Under the pieces are notes generated by a model. It ran no database searches and was not told where the DNA came from. It saw only the letters and a list, made by a program, of their open reading frames with translations. Shown here piece after piece: positions 7,925 through 36,691 of a DNA stretch of 43,349 nt. Made by a program: the position numbers and the translations under genes. How positions within the stretch are numbered: the stretch's first letter is position 1; each line of letters starts with the position of its first letter. This DNA is from a virus: positions 1-43,349 of the IMG/VR virus record IMGVR_UViG_3300022744_000047. The stretch is one strand, 5' to 3'.

Positions 7925-9181
7925 ATGGAAATCAAATTTAAGGTCGATTCGGCTGAGTTGAACGCAGCGTTGGGGGTCGTCAAGATTGTGTCCCCCCAGG
8001 TGACCCCGACTGGTGGCGGCGGTTACCTGTTCGTGGTGCAGGGTGACAAGTGCTGCATCTACTCGAAGAACAGCGGACATGAGGTTCGGGCTTCGTTCAA
8101 GGTCACCGACGTGGAGGGCGAAGGCCCGTTCATGTACCCGGCGGATCACGTGGATGCCTTCGCGTACGTCAAGGGTGTCATTTCGATGACGGCCACGTCG
8201 GAAGGCGAAGCCTTCAAGGTGAAGTACACGCACGGTGGGTCGGGTGTCTCGGAACACGTGTCCTTCGACCCGCGTCAGATGCACTCTTTCGAGAAGGACG
8301 TGGTGGCGGCTCAGGCGGCGGTCGAGAAGCCCAAGCGGTACAGTATCAAGATCCTCTTGACCGCGTTGGGGATGGCCAAGTCTTTCATGGCTAAGCCTAA
8401 TGATCCGGTGTCCGATGAGGCGAACAAGACCATCCGGATTTTCGGTGAGGCGGATCCGGAGCTGGCCAAGAAGGCGAACAACTACATGTTCGCGTCCAAC
8501 GGGACTGAGGCGTGCTACTTCTACAGCACGGCGTTCTTTGGTCAGGATCTTTCGGCTCCGGCTCAGCATCTACCTCTGATTGAGGCATTCCTCTCGAAGT
8601 CGTTGGGGGCCGTGACGGTTTACCCGACGGCCAAGAACACGTACATCATCAACTCAAATGATGATGTGTTTGGTTGGCCGCACCATGACAGCATGTACAA
8701 GAGCTTCGCGTATCTGGCGAAGTCCGATGAGGTGGTGGCTCACGTGGATGCCAAGGCCATGCTCTACCAGCTCCAGTACATGCGTGCGGAGCTGCCTAAG
8801 AAGAAGACCAAGATTCGTCTGCACTTCGATCCGTCGGACACCACGTTCAAGTTCTCCAGCTTGGGCGACACCAATGCGGTGACGAGCTTGCCCGTAGCGG
8901 GCGAGAAGGGCGAGTTGAAGGTGGACTCTGAGGTGGTGGCCCCGGCTAATGTGGACCACCTGATCCACCTGTTCGAGGGGATCAAGAGCGAGAAGCTGGA
9001 GTTCCGCATCAAGATCATTCCCGCTGACGCTAAGGCGAAGCGCCCGAAGGATCTCTACATGTTCCGCTCCATCGATGAGTTCCTCGTAAACGAGGAAGGC
9101 ACGTTCATGGGCATGGTTGCGGCCATTCCTGAGGGGTTCCACGTATGCAAAGTGACGCGCTTCGCGCCGGGCATCGACTGA
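7925..9181 (+). CDS. dnaN: DNA polymerase sliding clamp (DnaN-like)
   Basis: The product is 418 residues, somewhat longer than bacterial beta clamp (about 370). The alternation of beta strands with short helices and three similar-sized sections fits the three-domain clamp. The start MEIKFKVDSAELNAAL and the C-terminal strand end VTRFAPGID both resemble DnaN. It should form a ring on DNA holding the polymerase, loaded by the DnaX-type protein encoded at 12084. In T4 the clamp also links replication to late transcription, and here a sigma-like gene sits in the same block. The final 37 bases overlap the start of the Rad50 C-terminal half gene. Confidence 0.75.
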   Translation: MEIKFKVDSAELNAALGVVKIVSPQVTPTGGGGYLFVVQGDKCCIYSKNSGHEVRASFKVTDVEGEGPFMYPADHVDAFAYVKGVISMTATSEGEAFKVKYTHGGSGVSEHVSFDPRQMHSFEKDVVAAQAAVEKPKRYSIKILLTALGMAKSFMAKPNDPVSDEANKTIRIFGEADPELAKKANNYMFASNGTEACYFYSTAFFGQDLSAPAQHLPLIEAFLSKSLGAVTVYPTAKNTYIINSNDDVFGWPHHDSMYKSFAYLAKSDEVVAHVDAKAMLYQLQYMRAELPKKKTKIRLHFDPSDTTFKFSSLGDTNAVTSLPVAGEKGELKVDSEVVAPANVDHLIHLFEGIKSEKLEFRIKIIPADAKAKRPKDLYMFRSIDEFLVNEEGTFMGMVAAIPEGFHVCKVTRFAPGID

Positions 9182-12083: not shown

Positions 12084-13514
12084 GTGTGGGACGTTAGGTA
12101 CAGGCCACTTCGGTATGCCGATGTCCTGGGTCAAGAAGGTAACGTTCAACTCCTGAAGTCTCGGATCAGGAACGGCACTGCTTTTGACACCAGCTACATC
12201 TTCGCGGGTGGGTTCGGGCGGGGTAAAACCACGCTTAGCCGAATCCACGCGAGGGCCATGCTTTGTCTTGATATGGACAAGAGCGACCCTGAGCCCTGTA
12301 ACAAGTGTACGAACTGCCTTGCGATCCTGAACGAGCAGCCCGGTGCGTTCAGTGAGCGGGATGCGGCTAGCAAATGCTCGATTGACGATGTTAGGGCTAT
12401 CGTCGAAGAGCTGCCTTACGTCTTGATTGACGCCCCTAAGCGCATTTACCTATTTGACGAGGCGCACCGTATGAGTAGCGCGTCGCAGGATGTGCTGCTC
12501 AAACCGATCGAAGACAAGAAAATGATCGGGATGTTCTGCACTACGGAGGCTGAGAAGATCCGGGGTGCTATCCGATCTCGTTGCGAAGAGTACACGATCC
12601 GTAAGATTACGCGCGAAGACATCCTCAAGCGAATGAGGATGGTCCTGGAGACCGAGAAGGTCGAGTACCAGGATGACGCGGTGCTCATCGTCATCGATCA
12701 TGCCCTGGGGCACGTTCGAGACGTTCTGAATGGGCTTGAGATGATCGCCCAGCTTGGGCCTGTGACCGTCGATAGCGTGCGGGAGTACCTGCACCTGTCG
12801 GTTGTCACGTTGTACTACCAGATCTTGTTGAATCTGGACAACCCTATGAAGGCCATCGAGTTGGTGGATCGAGCTTGCGAGGAAGCAGGGCCCGAGGATG
12901 TGGCGGCGGGTATTGCTGAGGCTGCGATGAACAGCTACCGCATGGCCAACGGCATGTTCGCGGATTTCTCGTACATCGACAAGACGCTGGCTGAGCAGGT
13001 TTACGCCAAGTACCGGCAGCATGTGGTGCGATTTGCAGGGTGGTTCCTTGGGTCGCGCTACACAACGAAGTTGAGCCTGACCCGAGACGTGGTGGTGTTC
13101 TCGCAGACTTCCGGGCATTTGCCACCGGAGGGGGCTCAGCCGCCTGTGGTGTTCATGGGGGCGGCCACGGGCAGTGTTGCGATTTCACAGGTTCAACAGG
13201 CCCCGGTCCCGGCTCAGCAGGCCCCGGTCCCGGTTCAGGCCCCGTCGGGCTACCATGACGTGCCGATGCCCGGCTCCGTGACTCCCGAGGTGGCGAAGGC
13301 TGTCTTGGTTCCGAACTCCTATGCGGACCCGACACCCCCAACGGCCATTGAGGCAGCGTTGGTTAACGGTGCCATGCCCCGTCAACGCAACAATCAACAG
13401 AGCGGGGCACCTTCCCGATCCAAGCAGGTGCCCCGCGATATGACTCCAACCGAGTGGCGGGTGACGTTCGATCGGATGCTACGCAAAAAAACACCCACAG
13501 CGTTGCCGAGATAA
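12084..13514 (+). CDS. dnaX: DnaX-type clamp loader ATPase
   Basis: The product is 476 residues from a GTG start; the N-terminal WDVRYRP is the usual beginning of DnaX proteins. Walker A GGFGRGKTT is at 42-50. A zinc set of Cys61, 72, 75 and 78 follows, then Walker B FDEAH at 124-128 and the arginine finger SRC at 165-167. The lid and collar regions extend to about residue 340. The last ~110 residues are Pro/Gln-rich and probably disordered, ending in a basic patch. It should load the clamp encoded at 7925 using ATP. No delta or delta' gene is recognisable here, so it may work as a homo-oligomer or with host or distant subunits. Confidence 0.9.
   Translation: MWDVRYRPLRYADVLGQEGNVQLLKSRIRNGTAFDTSYIFAGGFGRGKTTLSRIHARAMLCLDMDKSDPEPCNKCTNCLAILNEQPGAFSERDAASKCSIDDVRAIVEELPYVLIDAPKRIYLFDEAHRMSSASQDVLLKPIEDKKMIGMFCTTEAEKIRGAIRSRCEEYTIRKITREDILKRMRMVLETEKVEYQDDAVLIVIDHALGHVRDVLNGLEMIAQLGPVTVDSVREYLHLSVVTLYYQILLNLDNPMKAIELVDRACEEAGPEDVAAGIAEAAMNSYRMANGMFADFSYIDKTLAEQVYAKYRQHVVRFAGWFLGSRYTTKLSLTRDVVVFSQTSGHLPPEGAQPPVVFMGAATGSVAISQVQQAPVPAQQAPVPVQAPSGYHDVPMPGSVTPEVAKAVLVPNSYADPTPPTAIEAALVNGAMPRQRNNQQSGAPSRSKQVPRDMTPTEWRVTFDRMLRKKTPTALPR
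13197..13238 (+). repeat. Two 21-bp tandem units in dnaX
   Basis: Two adjacent 21-base units, 13197-13217 and 13218-13238, differ by one base (C to T) and encode a repeated Gln-Ala-Pro-Val-Pro pattern in the disordered tail of the clamp loader. A third partial copy follows. This probably arose by slippage in a linker. Confidence 0.8.
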
Positions 13515-13541
13515 CGGGCGCAGTGTAACCCACTTAGGCGA

Positions 13542-15335
13542 ATGAGTGACAATCTTCAATGGGTGGTCTTGGAGTTGACCTCGAAGGCGGAAGGGGAGGA
13601 CCCTGATGTCGTTCGGGCCTCTATCCGCCATCACATTCGAGATGCTGAGGTCTTTGTCCCAGCGTCGGTGGTGCAGCGCGGCCCCGTCCGGGAGTACCAG
13701 TACCTTGTTGATGGGTACGCCTTCATTCTGCACAAGCACCCGGACACCCACTACGCTCGCTTGAACGAAACGAAGTACGTTCAGAGCGCGTTGTATCAAC
13801 CTACTGGGATTAAGCGCGAAAAGCGGCTTGCTACCGTGTCTTCGGAGCAGATCGCGAAGCTCAAGTCCCAGATCAAAGTTGAGGTGGACCAGGGGATCGA
13901 GGTGGGAGACACCGTGGTGATCTCCAGCGGCCCCTACAAGAACATCTCGGCGGTGGTCCGGGAGGAAATCCCCGAGCACGACTCTGTGGTGGTCCACATT
14001 CAACTACGGTCCACGGATCGCCTGGTGACGCTCCCTCGTGCATTCATGCACTTGGAAACCAAGTCACCGCATGTGGTCTATCGAGATCGCTTTGAGAAGC
14101 TCTCCGCGTGGGCTCTTGCGGCCAAGAGTATAGCGCACTGGCCAGTGCATCGTTTGAGCGGAGTTTTGAGTAATTTCAGTGGTTTCTCTCGGTTGGACTC
14201 CTGGGTTACGCAGAGTCGCCTAACGTATGGTTGGGTGCGAGCTTACCACTCATCTTTAGACTTCGCTCCAGCGCTCAAGAAGCTGAAAGAGGTCCAGGCC
14301 CTCTATACTGGAACGTCGCTTCTGAACCAACTTCTTGCCGCCTATGCCCCTATTCCGGATTGGACTCCGGTATTGGCCAAGCATCGGGAAGCTACGTTCC
14401 TGGAGTCCACCCACTCTCGTATTGCGGCCCTTTACGCGGACGTTCAACGCATGACAAATACCTCGGCTTCTCCAGTGAACTTGGTTGTGGACGGTACGCA
14501 GCTCTACATCCGGTGCATGGAGGCCCCAGGGCTAGGTGCTCTCACGGATTCAGAGGGTAGACCGACGGGGGCTGTCGTGGGCTTCCTGCGGAGCTTGGGG
14601 GCGTACCGGAAGCGTTTCCCGTCAGCGAACGTCTACGTGTGCTGGGACGGGACCTCTCAGAGGCGCAAGGCACTGTACCCCGACTACAAGGGGAACCGGG
14701 TGTCGAGATCAGGTGCGCCCTCATTTGGGTGGTCTTGGTTTCGTGAAACCCTACCTTTGTTGGGGGTCCAGCAGGCGTTCAACCCGGAGGAAGAAGCGGA
14801 CGATGTGATGGCGACGTTGGTTCGGGGTCCGTTGTCGGACCAACCCAATGTCATGATCACGACCGATCGGGATTTGCTGCAAGTCGTCTCGGAATTCACG
14901 CATCAACTGTGTCCTGCTGTGGGGTCAGGTAAGGAAAAGTTGTATGACCCAGAGCTTGTTGAAGCCGAGTACGGCGTACCTCCTACGTCTATGGTGCAGA
15001 TCAGGGCACTGAGTGGGGATACCTCCGACCATATTCCGGGCGTTTCCAACTTTGGCTTGAAAACTGCGGCCAAAGTAATCAAGCTCTACGGCACCGTTAC
15101 AGCCCTACTGGGGTCGAATCTCGCTGGGCTGGGGAAGGCGCAAGTCGCCAACCTTAGGGAGAGCGAGAAGCAAGTCCGCTTGAATGTGGACTTGATGACC
15201 TTGCGGGATGTTGAGTTCCGCCAGATCGAATCGAATCCAAATCAGAAGGAAGTAGAGGCTAGGTTGGTGGCCCTCGGGATCAAACCCGAGCCCATTCTAG
15301 CGGCATTCTTCCCCCGGCAACTCACGATTTCGTGA
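13542..15335 (+). CDS. NusG-like (NGN + KOW) domain fused to a 5'-3' exonuclease / flap endonuclease
   Basis: The product is 597 residues in three parts. Residues 6-100 follow the NusG N-terminal domain: WVVLEL at 7-12, VFVPASVV at 37-44 and YLVDGYAFI at 54-62 in place of the usual LFPGYVFV. Residues 118-172 are a KOW-type domain with GIEVGDTVVISSGPYKN. Residues 175-310 are an uncharacterised helical linker. Residues 312-597 are a PIN/FEN nuclease: VVDGT (Asp317), CWDG (Asp369), PEEEADD (416-421), TTDRD (Asp442, 444), GDTSDHIPG (Asp493, 496) and a helix-three-turn-helix GVSNFGLKTAAKVIKLYG. FEN enzymes remove RNA primers and flaps. NusG binds RNA polymerase. The frame is continuous, so one polypeptide is predicted. 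The ribosome binding site is weak, and the sigma-like gene follows directly. Confidence 0.85.
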   Translation: MSDNLQWVVLELTSKAEGEDPDVVRASIRHHIRDAEVFVPASVVQRGPVREYQYLVDGYAFILHKHPDTHYARLNETKYVQSALYQPTGIKREKRLATVSSEQIAKLKSQIKVEVDQGIEVGDTVVISSGPYKNISAVVREEIPEHDSVVVHIQLRSTDRLVTLPRAFMHLETKSPHVVYRDRFEKLSAWALAAKSIAHWPVHRLSGVLSNFSGFSRLDSWVTQSRLTYGWVRAYHSSLDFAPALKKLKEVQALYTGTSLLNQLLAAYAPIPDWTPVLAKHREATFLESTHSRIAALYADVQRMTNTSASPVNLVVDGTQLYIRCMEAPGLGALTDSEGRPTGAVVGFLRSLGAYRKRFPSANVYVCWDGTSQRRKALYPDYKGNRVSRSGAPSFGWSWFRETLPLLGVQQAFNPEEEADDVMATLVRGPLSDQPNVMITTDRDLLQVVSEFTHQLCPAVGSGKEKLYDPELVEAEYGVPPTSMVQIRALSGDTSDHIPGVSNFGLKTAAKVIKLYGTVTALLGSNLAGLGKAQVANLRESEKQVRLNVDLMTLRDVEFRQIESNPNQKEVEARLVALGIKPEPILAAFFPRQLTIS

Positions 15336-15387: not shown

Positions 15388-16014
15388 ATGTCATCATCTG
15401 GCTACGTAATTCCGGTGGATCCTGCGGAGTTGGCGAATCGGTTTGCAGCTCCTGATGAGTACGAGGAAGTACCCGAGGATCCCGATGCCGAGATGGCAGC
15501 GTTGTTCTCTAGTGGGGATTACGAGTCTAGGATCATGCCCCTGCTGGATCGGATACCCGATCGCGAGGCGGACTTGATTTACCTCTACTACGTCCGTAAG
15601 AAGCGCCAGGCGGACATTGCCGAGATCTTTGACGTGACCCAGGCGGCGATTAGCTATCGCCTGGATCGTGGGATTCAGCGCATCAAGTTCCTGCTGTCGA
15701 TCCCGACCGTGACCGAAGAAGACCTGCGGGACGACCTCAAGGCCATCTTTGACCCTATTGACATCGATATCTTGGTGGGGATGTGGCAGACAACGTGCCA
15801 GTCTGAGGTGGCCACCAAGCTGCGCTTGACACAAGGTCGAGTCCGCCATCGGTTCTTCAAGGCGGTCGAGGTGTTGAAGGCGGCAGCGGAGCAGGACGAC
15901 CGTTTCATGCCCTACCACAGGATCTTCTCGTCCATCTCGGACAAGAATTTCAACATCCTGCGGGCCGTCTCTCTGCCGCAATGGCAGAACCGGGGTCTCG
16001 ATCGCTGCATCTAG
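15388..16014 (+). CDS. Sigma-region-4-like transcription factor with two HTH units
   Basis: The product is 208 residues. An acidic N-terminus leads to a first sigma-70 region-4-like unit at about 50-103 (LLDRIPDREADLIYLYYV, then ADIAEIFDVTQAAISYRLDR). A second unit with the same layout follows at about 122-165 (IDIDILVGMWQTTCQSEVA, then LRLTQGRVRHRF). Region 4 of sigma contacts -35 promoter DNA and the RNA polymerase flap. No region 2 is visible. AGGAG lies eight bases before the ATG. It is the last gene of the replication block, directly before the virion genes, which suits a regulator of late transcription in the manner of T4 gp55/gp33. That role is inference. Confidence 0.7.
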   Translation: MSSSGYVIPVDPAELANRFAAPDEYEEVPEDPDAEMAALFSSGDYESRIMPLLDRIPDREADLIYLYYVRKKRQADIAEIFDVTQAAISYRLDRGIQRIKFLLSIPTVTEEDLRDDLKAIFDPIDIDILVGMWQTTCQSEVATKLRLTQGRVRHRFFKAVEVLKAAAEQDDRFMPYHRIFSSISDKNFNILRAVSLPQWQNRGLDRCI

Positions 16015-21890: not shown

Positions 21891-23960
21891 GTGCCCCCTA
21901 AGAAAAGACCGCCTGGGGAAGGAATCGCGAGTCTCATTCGGGACGCGGGCGCTCGGGCTAAGCTCGCTGCGGAGCAGAAGCAACAAGCCTTAGAGCATGA
22001 GGCAGCAATAGAGCTTGACCCGAGTGCTGAGCTTATCGTGGACGAGGTTCGTCCCTTTAGGCCCCGCATCTTCAACATTTTGGAGTACATCGAGCAGTCC
22101 TGGGGACTGGGGATGAAGCTGTTCCCGGCACAGCGCTTCATCGTCAAGCTGTACTACCACCTCCCGCTCGAAGAGAAGGAGAAGACGATTGAGGTCCGCG
22201 ACATGCTCGGGACCAAGATCGTGCATTACTTCACCGAGAAGGAGTACCTCAAATACCTCTACGAGGACGGCCGCTGCAACATTGGAGAGCAGGACCACGA
22301 ACGTCGTGAGCTTGTGCTGGCCATCGGTCGCCGTGCGGGCAAGACAACTCTCAGCGGCATCTTCGCGAGCTACGAGGTCTACCGTCTCCTGAACTTAGGC
22401 AATCCGCAGGAATACTACGGTCTACCTAATGGTAACCGTATCCAGATCATCTCGGTCGCTACGGACAAGGATCAGGCGGGTATCCTGTTCAACGAGGTCA
22501 CGACGCACTTGGCGAAGTGTGAATACTTCAGGCCTTACGTCGCGAACAACACGCTCAGTCACATCCAGTTCCGAACCCCCTACGACATTCAGAAGTTCGG
22601 TCCCTCAGCTCGTCACCAGAACGGTAAGTTCGTCTCGTTTAACGGTAAGGCTACGTTGCGTGTCACGTTCAAGTCGTGCATCGCAAAGGGCCTTCGTGGT
22701 TCCGGTAACGTCGTCGTCATCATGGACGAGATGGCGCACTACCAGGACAAGGGGCAGTCGAGCGCCAAGGACATCTACGACGCCGTTACGCCGTCTACCG
22801 CTGCCTTCTCGCCCAAAGCTTTGGACGAGAAGGGGCAGCTCATGCCCATCCGGAAGCCGGATGGTACGACGTATCCGGTTGAGTCGCGGATCATTACGAT
22901 CTCGTCCCCGCTGAACAAGCACGGACAGTTCTACGACCTTTACTACAAGGCGATGAGCCGTGCCCCAGGGTCGGAGAACATTCTCGCGATTCAAGCCCCG
23001 ACCTGGGAAGTGAACCCCACACTGCCCTCGTCCTACTACGTCCAGAAGTACCATTCGGATCCGGCGGTGTTCCTCACGGAGCACGGCGCACAGTTCAGTG
23101 ATCGTGTCAGGGGTTGGATTGAGCGCGAGTCCGATCTGGCGGAGTGCCTCGAACCTGATCTGCGCCCACAAATCATGGGCATCCCCCGGTACCCGTACCA
23201 GATGGGGATCGATATCGGTCTAGTGGGTGACGGCACCGCGATTGCGATCACTTGCGACATCAACGGCAAGGTGGTGTTGGCGTACCACGAGTATTGGCAA
23301 GCGGGCGTGGATTGGCGCGAGTCTAACCCCCACTTGGGTAGCAACTACTCGACCGACTACTGTAAAGGCCTGGCCACGGTAGATCGCCTAGATTTCGAGG
23401 AAATCGGCAACTGGATTCACAAGCTCAGCAAGCGCTTCTTCATCACTGAGGGCATCTTTGACCGTTGGAACGGTATTCCCTTGGAGCAAGCGTTGCTCAA
23501 GAAGGGTCTGACTCAGTTCAAGAGCGAATACTTCCAGCGGGACTTGGCCTCACGCATCTACCAGAACACTAAGATGATGATGTTCGACAAGGGACTTCGG
23601 TTGTACGACTTCCCGAGGGGCACAGGGGCGAAGCACTCGTTGCTTATCGAGGAGCTGCTCCAGCTTCAAGCCCAACAGATGTCCAAGAACATCGTGGTGG
23701 TACAGGCCCCCCAGACAGCGGGGCATCACGACGACTTGAGTGACGCCCTGGTTCGCGCAATTTGGCTCACCGCTGAGCGTATGCGTAACGAAAAGCACGT
23801 GTACGGGAACTCGACCGGGATGCCCGTTCATGCAGGTTCGGCGATGAGTGCAGGACGGTACCAGATGATGCGTGCTCGAAGCCACGGCGGTTTCTCGGAC
23901 CGTACCGTGAGCAAGAACATCGGTCTTCGGCAGCGGTCTGCGCTGCGGGCCCCTAGGTAA
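21891..23960 (+). CDS. terL: Terminase large subunit
   Basis: The product is 689 residues from a GTG start. The ATPase domain has Walker A GRRAGKTT (146-153) and Walker B VVVIMDEMAHY with Asp279 and Glu280. The C-terminal nuclease domain has MGIDIGLVGDGTA with an Asp near 440 and HHDDLSDALVRAIW near 613, matching the acidic triad of RNase H-like terminase nucleases. The protein drives DNA into the prohead through the portal and cuts the concatemer. It is near the upper length for TerL. The N-terminal ~60 residues are charged and probably bind the small subunit encoded just upstream. Confidence 0.95.
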   Translation: MPPKKRPPGEGIASLIRDAGARAKLAAEQKQQALEHEAAIELDPSAELIVDEVRPFRPRIFNILEYIEQSWGLGMKLFPAQRFIVKLYYHLPLEEKEKTIEVRDMLGTKIVHYFTEKEYLKYLYEDGRCNIGEQDHERRELVLAIGRRAGKTTLSGIFASYEVYRLLNLGNPQEYYGLPNGNRIQIISVATDKDQAGILFNEVTTHLAKCEYFRPYVANNTLSHIQFRTPYDIQKFGPSARHQNGKFVSFNGKATLRVTFKSCIAKGLRGSGNVVVIMDEMAHYQDKGQSSAKDIYDAVTPSTAAFSPKALDEKGQLMPIRKPDGTTYPVESRIITISSPLNKHGQFYDLYYKAMSRAPGSENILAIQAPTWEVNPTLPSSYYVQKYHSDPAVFLTEHGAQFSDRVRGWIERESDLAECLEPDLRPQIMGIPRYPYQMGIDIGLVGDGTAIAITCDINGKVVLAYHEYWQAGVDWRESNPHLGSNYSTDYCKGLATVDRLDFEEIGNWIHKLSKRFFITEGIFDRWNGIPLEQALLKKGLTQFKSEYFQRDLASRIYQNTKMMMFDKGLRLYDFPRGTGAKHSLLIEELLQLQAQQMSKNIVVVQAPQTAGHHDDLSDALVRAIWLTAERMRNEKHVYGNSTGMPVHAGSAMSAGRYQMMRARSHGGFSDRTVSKNIGLRQRSALRAPR

Positions 23961-26277: not shown

Positions 26278-26708
26278 TGAATCGCGCCCCCATGCAGATG
26301 ACCCCCGATGAGATCGTCGCGGAGATCGGGACGATCCATCAAGACTTGCAGGCCAAGTTGGCACGGGTCCAGGGGTTGGCCCAGGGGTTGTACCACCGTG
26401 TTCGACGCGAGCCCCCGGATGACAACACGACCGTCTACATCACCTATGCAAATGCTTGGATGCGCTTTGCGGGGATGGCCAACCAGGGTGTCACCCGCAC
26501 GGTGTCGGCATCCAAAGTGCTTCGGCGTTTGACGCCGGTTGCTGAGGTTGCTGCCACCCCCGAGCGCAAAAAGGCCCCAAAGCCCAAGGAAGACGCAGCG
26601 CCGATAGACGATTTGATTTCCATGTATGGGGCAGAACCCTCGGATCCTGCTGAGGCCGAGGACCCAACAAGCGAACCGTCTACGGACAGTTCCCCGAGTG
26701 AAGACTGA
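26277..26708 (+). CDS. Small protein preceding the portal
   Basis: The product is 143 residues from ATG 26277, whose A is the last base of the previous stop. The N-terminal half is a helical hairpin-like domain (IVAEIGTIHQDLQAKLARVQGL, then VYITYANAWMRFAGMANQGV). The C-terminal half is acidic, Pro-rich and disordered. The stop overlaps the start of the portal gene by one base. The family is not recognised. Helical small proteins before the portal can be neck or assembly factors, but this is unproven here. Confidence 0.65.
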   Translation: MNRAPMQMTPDEIVAEIGTIHQDLQAKLARVQGLAQGLYHRVRREPPDDNTTVYITYANAWMRFAGMANQGVTRTVSASKVLRRLTPVAEVAATPERKKAPKPKEDAAPIDDLISMYGAEPSDPAEAEDPTSEPSTDSSPSED

Positions 26709-28480
26709 TGGCCAAGACCTTTACGAACGTCAGAACGCGAGCTGCCACGATATCCGTTCCGGATTCGCGGGGTACTCGTCCCTATGTCTCCAAGGGGCCC
26801 ATCAGTTCGCTCACGGCTAAGGAAAAGGAAGCCCGCCGCATTCAGAAGACGGCTGACGGCAGCTTCAACACTTCGTTGGCTACGCAGGGCGCTTTCTTCT
26901 CACCGCAGCTCTCCACGGACTTCTTGGAGCTGCCCCAGTCGCTTCGTGAGAAGCGCGAGATTTACCGCCACTTCTACAATACGGATCCGATTGTCGGTCA
27001 ATCCATCGACCTGCACACGGAGCTGCCGCTCTCAAAGGTAAGGCTAGGAACTCCGAAGCCCGCGACGTTCCCGGAGGGCTTCAAGGATCAGCACGACTAC
27101 GCGAGTTACATCCTGTGGTTCTTCACCCAGATGTGCGATCGAATCAAGCTATTTCAACGGCTTGTTACGATGGTCCACCACTACTGGTTGGATGGTGGCG
27201 TGTTCGTGTTCGCTGAGGACTCCACGGTCGATGTTCCCGGGGAACTCGGTTACGATACTCAGACTCTTGGGGTCAAGTCTGTTCTTACAGAAGACGGCGA
27301 AACCAAGGAAGAACCTGAGGTTGGCCTGGTGGAGCGTCCTGATCGAGATCAGGAAGAACTGGCCTACTACCAGAAGCATTACGCTGGGTGGGATCGCCTC
27401 ATCATTTTGCCGATCGATCAGGTCAAGGTTACGACCTATTCGTTCACCGACAAGATGCGAATTGAGCTGATTCCGGCTGACCGGGATCGCGCTCTGATTG
27501 AGCAGGCCAAGGCCGGTGACCCGTTTTCCGAGGAGATGGTAAAGGAGATCCCGGAGGAAGTTCGGAACCACATTGAGCAGGGCAAGCTGATCCCTCTTGG
27601 TCTGGATCCCGATGAGGGTTCGTTCTGCTATTACATGGCGGGCCGTCGCGGGGCCGGTGAAGACCTGGGGCAGTCCATCCTGGACCGTGTGCTTCGGACG
27701 TTGATGTACCGGGAGAAGCTCCGCCAAGCGCAGACGCAGATTGCGTCTCGTGCCATGACCCCCAAGCGTATTGTTTGGGGTGACCGGATCTCTGAGATTG
27801 ACGTGATGGATCTGCGCGAGCAGGTCGATTTGGCGTTGGTTGATCCCGACTACTCTATCGTCACCAACTACGAAATTCACTGGGAGGAAATGGGCTCTCG
27901 GGACCGCTTGTTGGACTTGTCCAGTGAGTACGAAACTACGGACAAGTTGCTTTATGCGGGTCTTGGCGTAACAGAGAGCTTGCTTTCAGGCGAGGCACTG
28001 TACTCAGGGGATCGCCTTAAGCTTGAGGTCATCAACACCCGGTACCTGTTCCTTCGGGAGATGGTGCAGGAGTACGTCGAGCAGAACCTTTTCAAGCCGG
28101 TGGCACGTCGCAAGGGCTTTGTGGAGAAGAACGCTTGGGGTGGTGAGGTTGTGCTGTACCCCCGGCTGTCCTTCACCCGCCTTCCGTTGCGGGACTCGCA
28201 GGACACCTACGACGCTCTGTTTAACCTCTACAACAAGGGCTCGATCGATATTTCGATCATCCTGGAGATGTTCAACATTGACCCGGACGACACCCGGATC
28301 AAGCTGGAGCGCGACCTCTTCACGGTCAATGACGCCCTGTTCAACGAGGTTTTGCGAGGGATCTACAACTCGGTTGCCCAGAAGATCGTGGATGAGACCG
28401 ATGTAGCGAGTCGCATCACGAAGTCCCTCAAGCTGGAAGCAGTCGAACCCCCGGCTGAGCCCGAGGAAGGCCGCTTCTAG
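26708..28480 (+). CDS. Portal protein
   Basis: The product is 590 residues. The stretch REKREIYRHFYNTDPIVGQSIDLHTELPLSKVRL near 75-115 is typical of phage portal proteins, where a paired-helix core is linked to the clip and wing. The central part carries an acidic insertion (about 195-225), and the C-terminal region has FNIDPDDTRIKLERDLFTVN near 530. The portal is a dodecameric ring at one vertex through which TerL threads DNA. The length is in the usual range for large-headed phages. It is one base overlapped by the gene upstream and shortly followed by the 1014-residue gene. Confidence 0.82.
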   Translation: MAKTFTNVRTRAATISVPDSRGTRPYVSKGPISSLTAKEKEARRIQKTADGSFNTSLATQGAFFSPQLSTDFLELPQSLREKREIYRHFYNTDPIVGQSIDLHTELPLSKVRLGTPKPATFPEGFKDQHDYASYILWFFTQMCDRIKLFQRLVTMVHHYWLDGGVFVFAEDSTVDVPGELGYDTQTLGVKSVLTEDGETKEEPEVGLVERPDRDQEELAYYQKHYAGWDRLIILPIDQVKVTTYSFTDKMRIELIPADRDRALIEQAKAGDPFSEEMVKEIPEEVRNHIEQGKLIPLGLDPDEGSFCYYMAGRRGAGEDLGQSILDRVLRTLMYREKLRQAQTQIASRAMTPKRIVWGDRISEIDVMDLREQVDLALVDPDYSIVTNYEIHWEEMGSRDRLLDLSSEYETTDKLLYAGLGVTESLLSGEALYSGDRLKLEVINTRYLFLREMVQEYVEQNLFKPVARRKGFVEKNAWGGEVVLYPRLSFTRLPLRDSQDTYDALFNLYNKGSIDISIILEMFNIDPDDTRIKLERDLFTVNDALFNEVLRGIYNSVAQKIVDETDVASRITKSLKLEAVEPPAEPEEGRF

Positions 28481-28487
28481 TCTTTCG

Positions 28488-31400
28488 ATGTATCCGTTCC
28501 TACGGATGGATCGCGTTGGCACCAAAGATCACGTGGAGCGGGAAACCGACGAGGCGGAGCGCCTTGTTCGTCCCGCCCCGAAGGTCAAGCCCCCACGTCA
28601 CGACAAGCGTCGTGAGCGTATGGACGTGGAGGACGACCCTGATCTGGATATGACTGACAAGGATCTCTCAAAGAACTACAAGACCATCGGTGGCTCTGTG
28701 GCCCATCGGGTACTTGAGCGTTGGGCCAAAGCTAAGAGTCCGGCGGCTAAGAAGGTCAGGGTTCGTAAGAAGGAAACCGGCTGGGTAGGCTGGATCGGTC
28801 AAGATGCCCTGAAAAAGAGTCCGGGGGACTACGAGGTCGTTGAGGCTGAGGAAGACGAGGGGAAGGGGTCTGCTCCAGCAGAGGAAGCTAAGGGCGAGGG
28901 CGAAAAGCCAGCCGCCTCGAAGGGGGAGAAGCCCTCAGCGGAAACTGATGCGAAAGCGCAGGCGTCTTTGCGTGAGATGGCCAAGTCGGACGCTGAGTTC
29001 GCGGCCATCCTCAAGGACTTCACGAACCCGAAGTCTGACATGTTTGGGTGGGTCAAGGGTGATCCGGAGAAACCTGTTGCCCAGTTTCTGCGTGGGCGGA
29101 CACCTCCTAAGGGGATCAAGACGCTAGGGGACTTGCAACGGGTACTCCTGTTGAAGGCCCCCAAGACCAAAGCCCCTAAGAAGGCTCCGGAAGTAGCCCC
29201 TGAGGCTCCCAAGGCTGAGGCTCCCAAGGCTGAGGCTCCCAAGGCTGAGGCTCCCAAGGCTGAGGCCCCCAAGGCTGAGGCCCCCAAGGCTGAGGCTCCC
29301 AAGGCTGAGGCTCCCAAGGCTGAGGCTCCCAAGGCTAAGAAGACTCCCAAAGCTCCCAAAGTGGGGCCTGTTGACCCGGCCCTTGCAGTGGGTGCCTACG
29401 GGGACGCGGACGAAGAGAGTGTTGACGAAGAGGGTGTTGACGAGGACGAGGGGGACGCTGATAAACCAGTTTCCCTCGCAGGGGGTGCTGGGGTCCCGAC
29501 TCGCCCAGTTTCTAGGAGTGAGGTTCAGGCGGCACATCGTTTGATCGTCAACACTTTTCCGAGTGATGTGGCGGCAACCCTACTCCTAAATAAACCAGCC
29601 TTACATCCGGATGAGATCAATGCGTTAGTGTCTGATTACCATGTAGCGAGTGCTGTGCCCCTACCTTTGAGTAAGCTAGAGGGGTTCCGTGCTAACGCCG
29701 CTAAGTTCTACACTTTAGACCCAAATTCAGGGCCGGACCCTAAGGTGGTGCAGGACAAAGAGGGTGCGACGGTTTCGTTAGCGTCTTTGTCTCCGGAAGA
29801 TCGTGCCGTTGCGGTTCGTAAGCACCGCGTTCGGACGGTTGCTATGAGTCTTGCAGCGAAGGCCGCTCTTTCTCAAGGGCTTGTGCGCGAGGGGGCACCT
29901 AAGGAGTTGGCGGATAGCTTGTCCGGGTTTTTGTTGTCCGGTTCTGACGAATCGATGATGGACCGCCAAAAGCGAGCCTCTAAGGAAGCTGAGGCGTTGT
30001 TCTATCGTAGTCTTGAGCAGGAGCAGGTTAAGCCTCTGGCTGCTGGTGCTGTGGCAAGGCTTTTGACTGCCGTAGACGATCCGGCGGCGAAACGTGTGGC
30101 GGTCGGGTACTTCCAAGCTCGGGATTATCAAGAGGCCCGACAGCGGTTCTTGGACCACAAGTCGAAAGAGCACATTTCTGAGCACCAGGCCCCGGATGTC
30201 ATTGCGGCACGTCTGAGTAAGGCTTCTGATTTTCTACGTAAGCGTGCCGAGAGGTACCCCGAGGGGGTCAGTACGCAGGACACAGCGCTGACCTTTCAGA
30301 CCCGGGTGCTCAAGCACATCGCGGCATTGGTTCCGGATAAACTACCCCTCATTCAGGAGCTTCTGGATGAGGGGGACAACGCTTACTACGACAAGGCCGT
30401 AGCGAAGCACAAAAAAGCGGTCCGAGCCTACCAGATGCGTCGCGTTTTGGCTGAGAAAGAGGCTAAAAACGCTTACGACAAGTATTCGGAGGCGCTCAAG
30501 GCTGGCGGGGACCCGAACGTCGAGCCGCCGCTGGGTGCTGCCGAGCGTTTGGCTGCTGAGGGGGCGCTGGAGCCCGTTGAACCGAGGCGACCCCCTCGGT
30601 ATGACATCCAGCGTAAGAAGCCCGCCGACCTGAAAGAGTCGGCAACGCACCTTTGGGACGACTTCATGAGCCGGACGGCCAGCCAGCGGATAGCGGCTCG
30701 GTACCTGGCCACCCCTTTTTCTACTTATCCCGTTGCATGTGCGATGGGCCAGAACCGGCAAGCCGTCTATTGGGGTGTTGAACCTTACCCGAAAGGGCAA
30801 GGGCCGTCGTCCTACGTGGGTTGGGAACAACCGCAGGCGCGTGACCTTGGCGACAAGGACTTCACGCGAATCCTCAAAGCGGCACGTGTGTGGTTGAAGA
30901 CCCCGGTGCTTGCTACGAACATTGAGGGCATCGTTAGAGACACGCAGCTTCGGGCTGCGTTGGATCTCGCGATTGACACTGAGGGGTATGCCTCGGTGCT
31001 GCACCCGACTCTGTACAACAACTTGTTGGCTCGCCTTGCGGGTGAGCCCCAGGACGAGACGTTGCTGACGGTTACAGCGTTTGCCGAAGATGAAATTGAT
31101 CGGTCTACAACTGCGAGGATGACGATGCCAAAGGATACTGTTGAATTGAAGCAAGCTCAGGCGGACCACTTTCTGGCTCGCCTGGATCGTATGGCCTCCA
31201 CCGTGCAAGAGAAGCACGAACAGTGGGGCATGCCTCTCGCGACAGCCAAGGAGTTCGTGAACGGACTCGACAAGCTCGCGGACGAGTTCGAGAAGGCCGC
31301 CTACGGCGAGCAGTCGCTGACGATCCGTCAGGCGTCGATCGTCCTGGGCACGGAGAAGACCGCTGAAGTGATTCAGCGTGACTCGGACGAGAAGTACATG

Positions 31401-31532
31401 GACACGTTCTCGAATCCGCAGAAGCCGATTCAGACCGAAGCGGATGAGCCCTACATGGCTGCCTACAAGAGCGACGACTCTTCGGGTGTCCAGAACGGCT
31501 CGGCCGGGAATGGTCGCAAGCTCGCTCCTTGA
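28488..31532 (+). CDS. Large virion-region protein with Ala-Pro-Lys repeat
   Basis: The product is 1014 residues. Residues 1-110 are charged. Residues 130-230 mix Ala/Glu/Lys with a small ordered part. Residues about 239-283 are nine EAPKA units. An acidic linker follows, then a long helical region of about 340-720. RTASQRIAARYLA near 727-741 carries the recurring motif and precedes a distinct folded domain, VYWGVEPYPKGQGPSSYVGW. A helical C-terminal part ends in a disordered tail. Codons in the middle (about 29500-30400) use more TTA/CTA and look AT-richer than the flanks. ATG 28488 has no good ribosome binding site, so the start may lie downstream. The function is unknown; head-associated by position. 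Confidence 0.6.
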   Translation: MYPFLRMDRVGTKDHVERETDEAERLVRPAPKVKPPRHDKRRERMDVEDDPDLDMTDKDLSKNYKTIGGSVAHRVLERWAKAKSPAAKKVRVRKKETGWVGWIGQDALKKSPGDYEVVEAEEDEGKGSAPAEEAKGEGEKPAASKGEKPSAETDAKAQASLREMAKSDAEFAAILKDFTNPKSDMFGWVKGDPEKPVAQFLRGRTPPKGIKTLGDLQRVLLLKAPKTKAPKKAPEVAPEAPKAEAPKAEAPKAEAPKAEAPKAEAPKAEAPKAEAPKAEAPKAKKTPKAPKVGPVDPALAVGAYGDADEESVDEEGVDEDEGDADKPVSLAGGAGVPTRPVSRSEVQAAHRLIVNTFPSDVAATLLLNKPALHPDEINALVSDYHVASAVPLPLSKLEGFRANAAKFYTLDPNSGPDPKVVQDKEGATVSLASLSPEDRAVAVRKHRVRTVAMSLAAKAALSQGLVREGAPKELADSLSGFLLSGSDESMMDRQKRASKEAEALFYRSLEQEQVKPLAAGAVARLLTAVDDPAAKRVAVGYFQARDYQEARQRFLDHKSKEHISEHQAPDVIAARLSKASDFLRKRAERYPEGVSTQDTALTFQTRVLKHIAALVPDKLPLIQELLDEGDNAYYDKAVAKHKKAVRAYQMRRVLAEKEAKNAYDKYSEALKAGGDPNVEPPLGAAERLAAEGALEPVEPRRPPRYDIQRKKPADLKESATHLWDDFMSRTASQRIAARYLATPFSTYPVACAMGQNRQAVYWGVEPYPKGQGPSSYVGWEQPQARDLGDKDFTRILKAARVWLKTPVLATNIEGIVRDTQLRAALDLAIDTEGYASVLHPTLYNNLLARLAGEPQDETLLTVTAFAEDEIDRSTTARMTMPKDTVELKQAQADHFLARLDRMASTVQEKHEQWGMPLATAKEFVNGLDKLADEFEKAAYGEQSLTIRQASIVLGTEKTAEVIQRDSDEKYMDTFSNPQKPIQTEADEPYMAAYKSDDSSGVQNGSAGNGRKLAP
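29202..29336 (+). repeat. Nine tandem 15-bp units
   Basis: Nine contiguous copies of a 15-base unit (GAGGCTCCCAAGGCT with some GAGGCC variants) encode nine EAPKA pentapeptides inside the 1014-residue protein. The near-identity at the DNA level implies recent expansion by slippage or unequal recombination, and copy number is likely to vary between relatives. Confidence 0.95.
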
Positions 31533-35812: not shown

Positions 35813-36691
35813 ATGGGCCAAGTATCTAACGAGACCAAGCAACAGGTTATCAGCGAGTACATCAAGACCGCTGCTGGCCGCGCGAAGCTAGCTGCTTCGA
35901 TGATCCAACCTCTGCGTCTCCGCCGTGACTACTCGTCGGTTGGTCGTAAGACCTTCCTCGTCGAGCAGCTCCCGGATGGTGCGTTGCCGATCTACGACAA
36001 GGATCCGGACGTGACCGCGTTCGTCGTGGGCGAGGAAGGCGAGAACATTCTCGCAATCCAGAAGCCACGCCGCGTGATCTTCCCCTTGTTCGAGATCGCC
36101 TCGAACCCGGAGATCCCGCTCACCCAGATCAAGGAGCGTCGCTTCGATCTGATCGAGCGTGCTCAGGACCTGGCGAAGGCGCAGATCCAGGCGGCAGAGG
36201 ACGAGCGTGTGTTCGCGATCCTTGACAGCATCGCTGTCTCGGGCTTCGACACGCTGCCCGGCCAGACCAACCCGGACGTTCCGGTGGTCGCCCCCATCAG
36301 CCCGGCGGTTCTCGCCGATGCGTTCGCAGAGGTGGAGCGTCACGATCTTCGTGTTGCCCGCATCTACATGAACGCGGTGGACTACGCGGACATCCGCAAG
36401 TTCGGTCGCGACATCTTGGACATTGAGAGTCAGGCCACCCTGCTCAAGACCGGCCTCCAGGCCGTTCTTTGGGGTGCTCAGATCATCACGTCCAGGCTCG
36501 TTCCGGCTGGCTTCGCGTACGTGTGCTGCGAGCCCGAGCAGTTCGGTCGTATCCCGGTTCGCACCGAGATCACCGTCCTGTCGGCGGACGACCCGAAGGC
36601 TCGTACGATTGGTTTCTCCTGCTTTGAAAATTTGGGCATTGGCGCGTTCAACCCTCGCGGGTTGGCTCGTGTCGTCATTACCCGCGTTTGA
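35813..36691 (+). CDS. Major capsid protein (HK97 fold)
   Basis: The product is 292 residues. A helical N-terminus is followed by GRKTFLVEQLPDGALPIYDKD and a long helix around IKERRFDLIERAQDLAKAQIQAAEDERVFAIL, like the E-loop and spine helix of HK97-type capsids. A later domain contains DLRVARIYMNAVDYADIRKF and the closing beta stretch. No long delta domain is seen, so maturation may trim only the N-terminus. GGAGCC precedes the ATG with strong spacing, and two hairpins follow, as expected for a highly expressed gene. Confidence 0.85.
   Translation: MGQVSNETKQQVISEYIKTAAGRAKLAASMIQPLRLRRDYSSVGRKTFLVEQLPDGALPIYDKDPDVTAFVVGEEGENILAIQKPRRVIFPLFEIASNPEIPLTQIKERRFDLIERAQDLAKAQIQAAEDERVFAILDSIAVSGFDTLPGQTNPDVPVVAPISPAVLADAFAEVERHDLRVARIYMNAVDYADIRKFGRDILDIESQATLLKTGLQAVLWGAQIITSRLVPAGFAYVCCEPEQFGRIPVRTEITVLSADDPKARTIGFSCFENLGIGAFNPRGLARVVITRV

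Follow-up and report, generated by a model that had tools for sequence, protein, structure and literature searches.

A NusG–flap endonuclease fusion gene of giant bacterial viruses, a possible physical bridge between transcription and DNA replication

To our knowledge, no transcription factor other than NusG is universally conserved; flap endonucleases (FENs) are core nucleases of DNA replication and repair. FENs of the 5′-3′ exonuclease superfamily can degrade RNA in hybrids. According to a NusG review (PMC7819879), the NGN domain of all NusG proteins contacts the β′ clamp helices. In archaea, the KOW domain of Spt5 bridges RNA polymerase (RNAP) to the ribonuclease FttA (PMC11616081). In phage T4, gp55 contacts the β′ coiled-coil and gp33 the β flap of host RNAP, and both are connected with the sliding clamp by their C-terminal peptides (PMC2988020). 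The present analysis concerns a gene of giant bacterial viruses in which NusG and FEN are joined in one chain and in which an internal start suggests a free nuclease as well. This gives the gene the appearance of a built-in physical link from transcription to DNA replication.

The gene lies in a 43,349-nucleotide stretch of viral DNA (IMG/VR record IMGVR_UViG_3300022744_000047; hereafter the window). Judging by a large terminase gene (21891-23960) and a weak capsid match (35813-36691), the window is part of the genome of a tailed phage. Among the genes that lie between these two, several large ones (e.g., 26708-31532) match no Pfam family, and scans of the whole stretch for Rfam families and tRNAs found none. 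The fusion gene itself (13542-15335, plus strand, as are all its parts given below) is a single ORF of 597 amino acids with an ATG start. The continuous 597-codon frame reported in a preliminary description of this DNA is thus intact, with no internal stop. The NusG and FEN parts of the domain layout given there also stand, but that layout overlooked a third, fast-evolving helical segment (residues 175-303) and an internal start codon at 14451. Judged from its sequence, the gene appears to be a phage-specific NusG paralogue, i.e., a specialised kind of NusG, to whose C-terminus first a linker and then a flap endonuclease are attached.

The NusG part comprises an NGN domain (about residues 1-113; 13542-13880) and a KOW domain (residues 121-174; 13902-14063). 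Thermotoga maritima NusG was matched by single-sequence phmmer (E=3e-6), and NusG in the PDB by a profile search (E=1.2e-8). The Pfam NusG family (PF02357) was found at the expected place in 5 of 10 records (13560-13862 in the window), sub-threshold, with E-values of 1e-4 to 1e-3 and with 15-20 bits against a curated cut-off of 22.2, which is a library threshold and not a biological feature; the Pfam KOW match is likewise sub-threshold (E=0.02). An AlphaFold model of NGN and KOW, built from 22 window and locus sequences, reached a pLDDT of 85, and Foldseek searches with this model returned NusG, RfaH and Spt5 (E down to 1.7e-8) as well as phage NusG/RfaH-like proteins. The KOW domain superposes on that of Mycobacterium tuberculosis NusG with an rmsd of 1.2 Å over 54 columns. 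Both domains first proposed as NGN-like and KOW-like are therefore borne out, by sequence searches and by predicted structure alike. Whole-chain TM-scores of the NusG part are modest (about 0.4) and single domains superpose better, which we attribute to a differing orientation of NGN and KOW. The NusG part would be classed as a divergent member of the NusG/Spt5 family.

One reading of this divergence is that the NusG-like part does not bind RNAP and serves only as a targeting module for the FEN, by binding nucleic acid, the clamp loader or the sigma-like protein. The divergent sequence and the Pfam NusG score below the cut-off would agree with this, as would the KOW domain: by our own mapping, an invariant Arg occupies the position that we take to correspond to F165 of E. 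coli NusG, which replaces the KOW aromatic and suggests that the Rho/S10 contacts of housekeeping NusG have probably been lost. We nevertheless consider such a module very improbable, as NGN-KOW is the best conserved part of the protein in the window clade (70-79% against 61-68% overall) and as G58-Y59-A60-F61 and other core positions are invariant even in the standalone NusG proteins of the outgroups described below. Pairwise dN/dS of NGN-KOW is 0.03-0.08 (unsaturated pairs). With the NGN fold and the G-Y motif conserved, it is plausible that the FEN is tethered through the NusG part to a transcribing RNAP. The likely target is the host enzyme, because no phage RNAP β or β′ subunit is recognisable by Pfam: a phage-encoded multisubunit RNAP was considered, and the large records yielded no match to PF00562 or PF04997, a search that divergent phiKZ-like subunits could escape.

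The C-terminal half of the protein (residues 304-597; 14451-15332) is a FEN/5′-3′ exonuclease domain. Both Pfam domains exceed their curated cut-offs (5_3_exonuc_N, E=3.8e-25, 89 bits; the 5_3_exonuc SAM fold, E=3.2e-15, 56.8 bits), and the nearest solved structures in the PDB are those of Pol I, Taq and mycobacterial FEN. The full set of FEN acidic residues claimed at the outset is indeed present: D317, D369, E418, D420, D421, D442, D444, D493 and D496 are invariant in 23 aligned relatives, as are K383 and R386. From the alignment and from knowledge of the family, we take these nine acids to be the metal ligands of a two-metal site. Pairwise dN/dS of the FEN part is 0.05-0.11 (unsaturated pairs). 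Close to the C-terminus, an LxxFF motif (residues 586-590; 15297-15311), found as [ILV]xxFF in 30 of 34 fusions, resembles a PIP-type sliding-clamp ligand and could bind the clamp.

The two halves are separated by the variable linker (residues 175-303; 14064-14450), for which AlphaFold predicts helices with low confidence; since the full-length model is poor (pLDDT 64), the structure of the linker and the arrangement of the domains are left uninterpreted. The linker varies in length and sequence, yet it is open and in frame in all fusions, with W190 invariant and W200 nearly so, and it is missing from the standalone NusG of the outgroups. Its pairwise dN/dS of 0.08-0.19 (pairs of unsaturated relatives) indicates purifying selection on the encoded protein, from which it follows that the linker is translated and that the read-through product is made.

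The arrangement is widespread among large viral contigs. Scans of IMG/VR, confirmed by tblastn, yielded 34 distinct full-length fusions, the window included, on contigs of up to 529 kb; the same NGN, KOW and FEN order thus recurs in other phages, in proteins about 36-68% identical to that of the window. It had been foreseen that a frameshift or an assembly error near 14050-14450 might have joined two separate genes. The 34 distinct fusions and the selection on the linker rule out both a frameshift and a chimeric joint, and together with the structure match they also refute chance resemblance. In favour of an artefact stands the low Pfam score that the NusG part obtains by itself, but we consider the probability of an artefact negligible. 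Beyond IMG/VR, a tblastn search of 50,697 phage records found no full-length fusion: no match covered at least 80% of the query, and the listed matches were to the FEN part alone. The NusG part alone had a single match in the phage records, the metagenomic 485-kb phage LR745208.1. In GTDB genome contigs, a profile scan found FEN parts only, none of which reached the NusG half, and a single-sequence scan was empty. The impression given at the outset, that this pairing of domains is undescribed, holds for the literature searched, where no description of a NusG-FEN fusion was found; the passages searched in a jumbo-phage survey (PMC7824862) and in the NusG review (PMC7819879) contain no mention of one. 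Each domain is known; what the literature searched does not describe is the joining of the two, its retention by a large group of huge phages, and the start codon inside the gene.

The internal start lies at the junction between linker and FEN. In the window it is an in-frame ATG (Met304; 14451-14453), which is a candidate start for a free FEN and is invariant in 9/9 members of the window clade, though the neighbouring linker is variable. Of the other fusions, 22 carry a start codon exactly three codons before the first FEN strand residue (15 ATG, 5 GTG and 2 TTG) and one has a GTG one codon earlier than this common position. A junction start is thereby present in 32 of the 34 fusions, the exceptions being L119 (ACG) and L141 (CCC), and its codon swaps solely among ATG, GTG and TTG: where the residue is Val the codon is always GTG, and where it is Leu always TTG. 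The background frequency of start codons within the linker is 7%. Signals for ribosome binding differ between groups. In the divergent group, Shine-Dalgarno (SD)-like pairing upstream of the junction start exceeds that at other linker sites, with a Fisher P over ranks of about 1e-6, a value that is not a true probability, as the sequences are related and not independent; in the window clade, there is no SD enrichment at the internal ATG (Fisher P=0.18). Window genes in general carry an SD signal, and the fusion's own start (13542), with a dG of 0.5, is among the three weakest of 43 window genes. Because that start is also weak in SD pairing, initiation rates are not readable from the sequence. 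In the short non-coding gap before the fusion start, 7 of 9 members of the window clade carry a [CG]AGTGTA element (13520-13527), a possible promoter or regulatory element; the other two, L009 and L011, keep GTGTA alone.

A natural separation of the two halves occurs in L138, a 407-kb contig, in which the stop codon of NusG-linker and the start codon of FEN overlap as ATGA at the homologous junction. L138 is nested among the fusions in the tree, as sister to the fused L030 (support 100/100). A sequencing indel is conceivable in principle, but it would then have had to hit the junction by chance. Given the junction start codons and the L138 split, the gene probably has two products, the fusion and a free FEN. 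The same observations, with the SD-like sites, could be taken to mean that the fusion is an incidental product of tightly coupled operon neighbours, whose halves would act independently and whose main nuclease product would be the free FEN; the high variability of the linker and the unfused NusG of the outgroups point the same way. This null explanation is unlikely in our judgement: of the 35 sequences that have a FEN, 34 keep it fused over deep divergence, L138 being the exception, and the linker is not only under the purifying selection described above but is kept on the NusG side even in L138.

The gene lies among replication and sigma genes; the three window genes given with coordinates below are also on the plus strand. 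Directly upstream lies a clamp loader gene of the DnaX/RFC type (12084-13514; PHROG 5846, E=3e-48; Pfam DNA_pol3_delta2, E=2e-20). It is the last of a series that includes a UvsX-like recombinase, SbcC/D-like proteins, an exonuclease, a probable sliding clamp, a Toprim primase and a metallopeptidase. The clamp gene (7925-9181) matches PHROG 947, a polymerase processivity factor, weakly in the window (E=0.006), and the gene in the same operon of L045 matches it with E=5e-10. Directly downstream, a gene for a sigma-region-4-like protein (15388-16014; Sigma70_r4, E=9e-14, in two stretches) is the next gene in relatives too, where it often overlaps the fusion or starts within 60 nt downstream. Simple motif searches of 37 loci found the sigma motif at 30 and that of the clamp loader at 29. 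The misses include contig ends and the effect of strict patterns, and the sigma-like gene was seen directly in several of them (e.g., L030, L031 and L042). ORFs resembling HNH homing endonucleases were noted by eye a short way behind the sigma-4-like gene in L031 (8535-9620), L034 (8675-9547), L040 (8556-8903) and L044 (8588-9691), and the clamp loader of LR745208.1 (L161; 5185-7071) carries an intein-like insertion.

In three outgroups, L045, L047 and the 485-kb LR745208.1, a standalone NusG of 178-207 amino acids occupies the place between a like clamp loader and the sigma gene. These relatives match PHROG 6386, "transcription antiterminator" (E=7e-8), and no FEN match was found in the three records, of which L045 (139 kb) and L047 (65 kb) may be fragments. 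Since NusG stands alone in operons without a detected FEN, the simplest history is that NusG would already have been part of the replication/transcription operon when the linker and FEN joined its C-terminus. In the fused lineage, the fusion contains the single FEN of each record tested, with no second FEN elsewhere; in L138 the single FEN is the split-off neighbour of NusG. The records tested for it hold a family A polymerase with no FEN match of its own, and no DNA polymerase III α subunit was found in them.

These genomic facts bear on a purpose confined to transcription, in which a FEN held at the elongating host RNAP would clear R-loops or nascent-RNA hybrids, or would terminate transcription, with replication uninvolved. 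The capacity of superfamily FENs, as a matter of general knowledge, to degrade RNA in hybrids lends this idea some weight, as do the profile and structural support for the NusG fold and the recruitment of a ribonuclease by archaeal Spt5 (PMC11616081). An operon of replication and sigma genes, a single FEN per genome and a conserved free-FEN start, all of which point to replication for at least part of the product, speak against it, and we regard this main alternative as doubtful. A replication-transcription link like that of T4 is no less likely than R-loop clearance because of the probable free FEN, the clamp-loader and sigma-4-like flanks and the outgroups with NusG and no FEN.

Altogether, the explanation that we prefer is a two-product gene whose fusion product would couple late transcription to replication, an account that as a whole we believe and doubt in equal measure. 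Translation from the first start would yield NusG-linker-FEN, and initiation at the junction start codon (14451) would yield free FEN. The free form would take on the lagging-strand work, Okazaki maturation, of which the phage family A polymerase is incapable, the only FEN detected in each genome being encoded in the fusion gene. The fusion would bind host RNAP through its NGN domain at the β′ clamp helices and hold the nuclease beside the elongation complex, perhaps holding the sliding clamp as well through the C-terminal LxxFF. Late transcription would in this way be physically coupled to replication, and 5′ flaps or RNA:DNA hybrids could be cut where the machines meet. In a bolder and more tentative form, on which we would not rely, one jumbo-phage gene would supply both a free and an RNAP-tethered FEN, the tethered one joining host RNAP to the clamp and replisome as a covalent coupler. 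We know of no covalent transcription-replication coupler of this kind in any cell or virus. The long-kept covalent joining of NusG and FEN, with a probable route to free nuclease, offers a compact and testable model of transcription-replication coordination, each of whose proposed steps can be tested directly, and the fusion offers a natural RNAP-targeted nuclease.

Compared with known systems, the fusion shares with NusG paralogues (RfaH, LoaP and phage PHROG 6386) the fold and order of NGN and KOW and the G-Y core; it differs from them in bearing a linker and a nuclease, in the Arg at the KOW aromatic site for Rho/S10 and in its clamp-loader and sigma-4-like flanks. With the FEN family, i.e., the Pol I N-terminal domain, Taq, T5 D15, mycobacterial FEN and ExoIX, it has in common the catalytic domain, the nine acids and the SAM fold, whereas the window FEN is joined to NusG rather than to a polymerase and has a C-terminal LxxFF tail. 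The archaeal Spt5-FttA system resembles it in that a NusG/Spt5 protein links RNAP to a nuclease (PMC11616081), yet the archaeal link is non-covalent and FttA is a metallo-β-lactamase ribonuclease, not a FEN. The likeness to the gp55/gp33/gp45 module of T4 lies in replication-clamp genes that adjoin RNAP-binding factors (putative ones in the present case), in a sigma-4-like protein and in a C-terminal hydrophobic peptide; NGN domains dock on the same RNAP element as gp55, the β′ coiled-coil or clamp helices (PMC2988020). The adjacent sigma-region-4-like gene product is a candidate for a partner of the gp33 or gp55 kind. Unlike the T4 module, the present one has a NusG-like protein where T4 has a sigma-2-like one, and its chain includes a nuclease; the likeness is one of arrangement.
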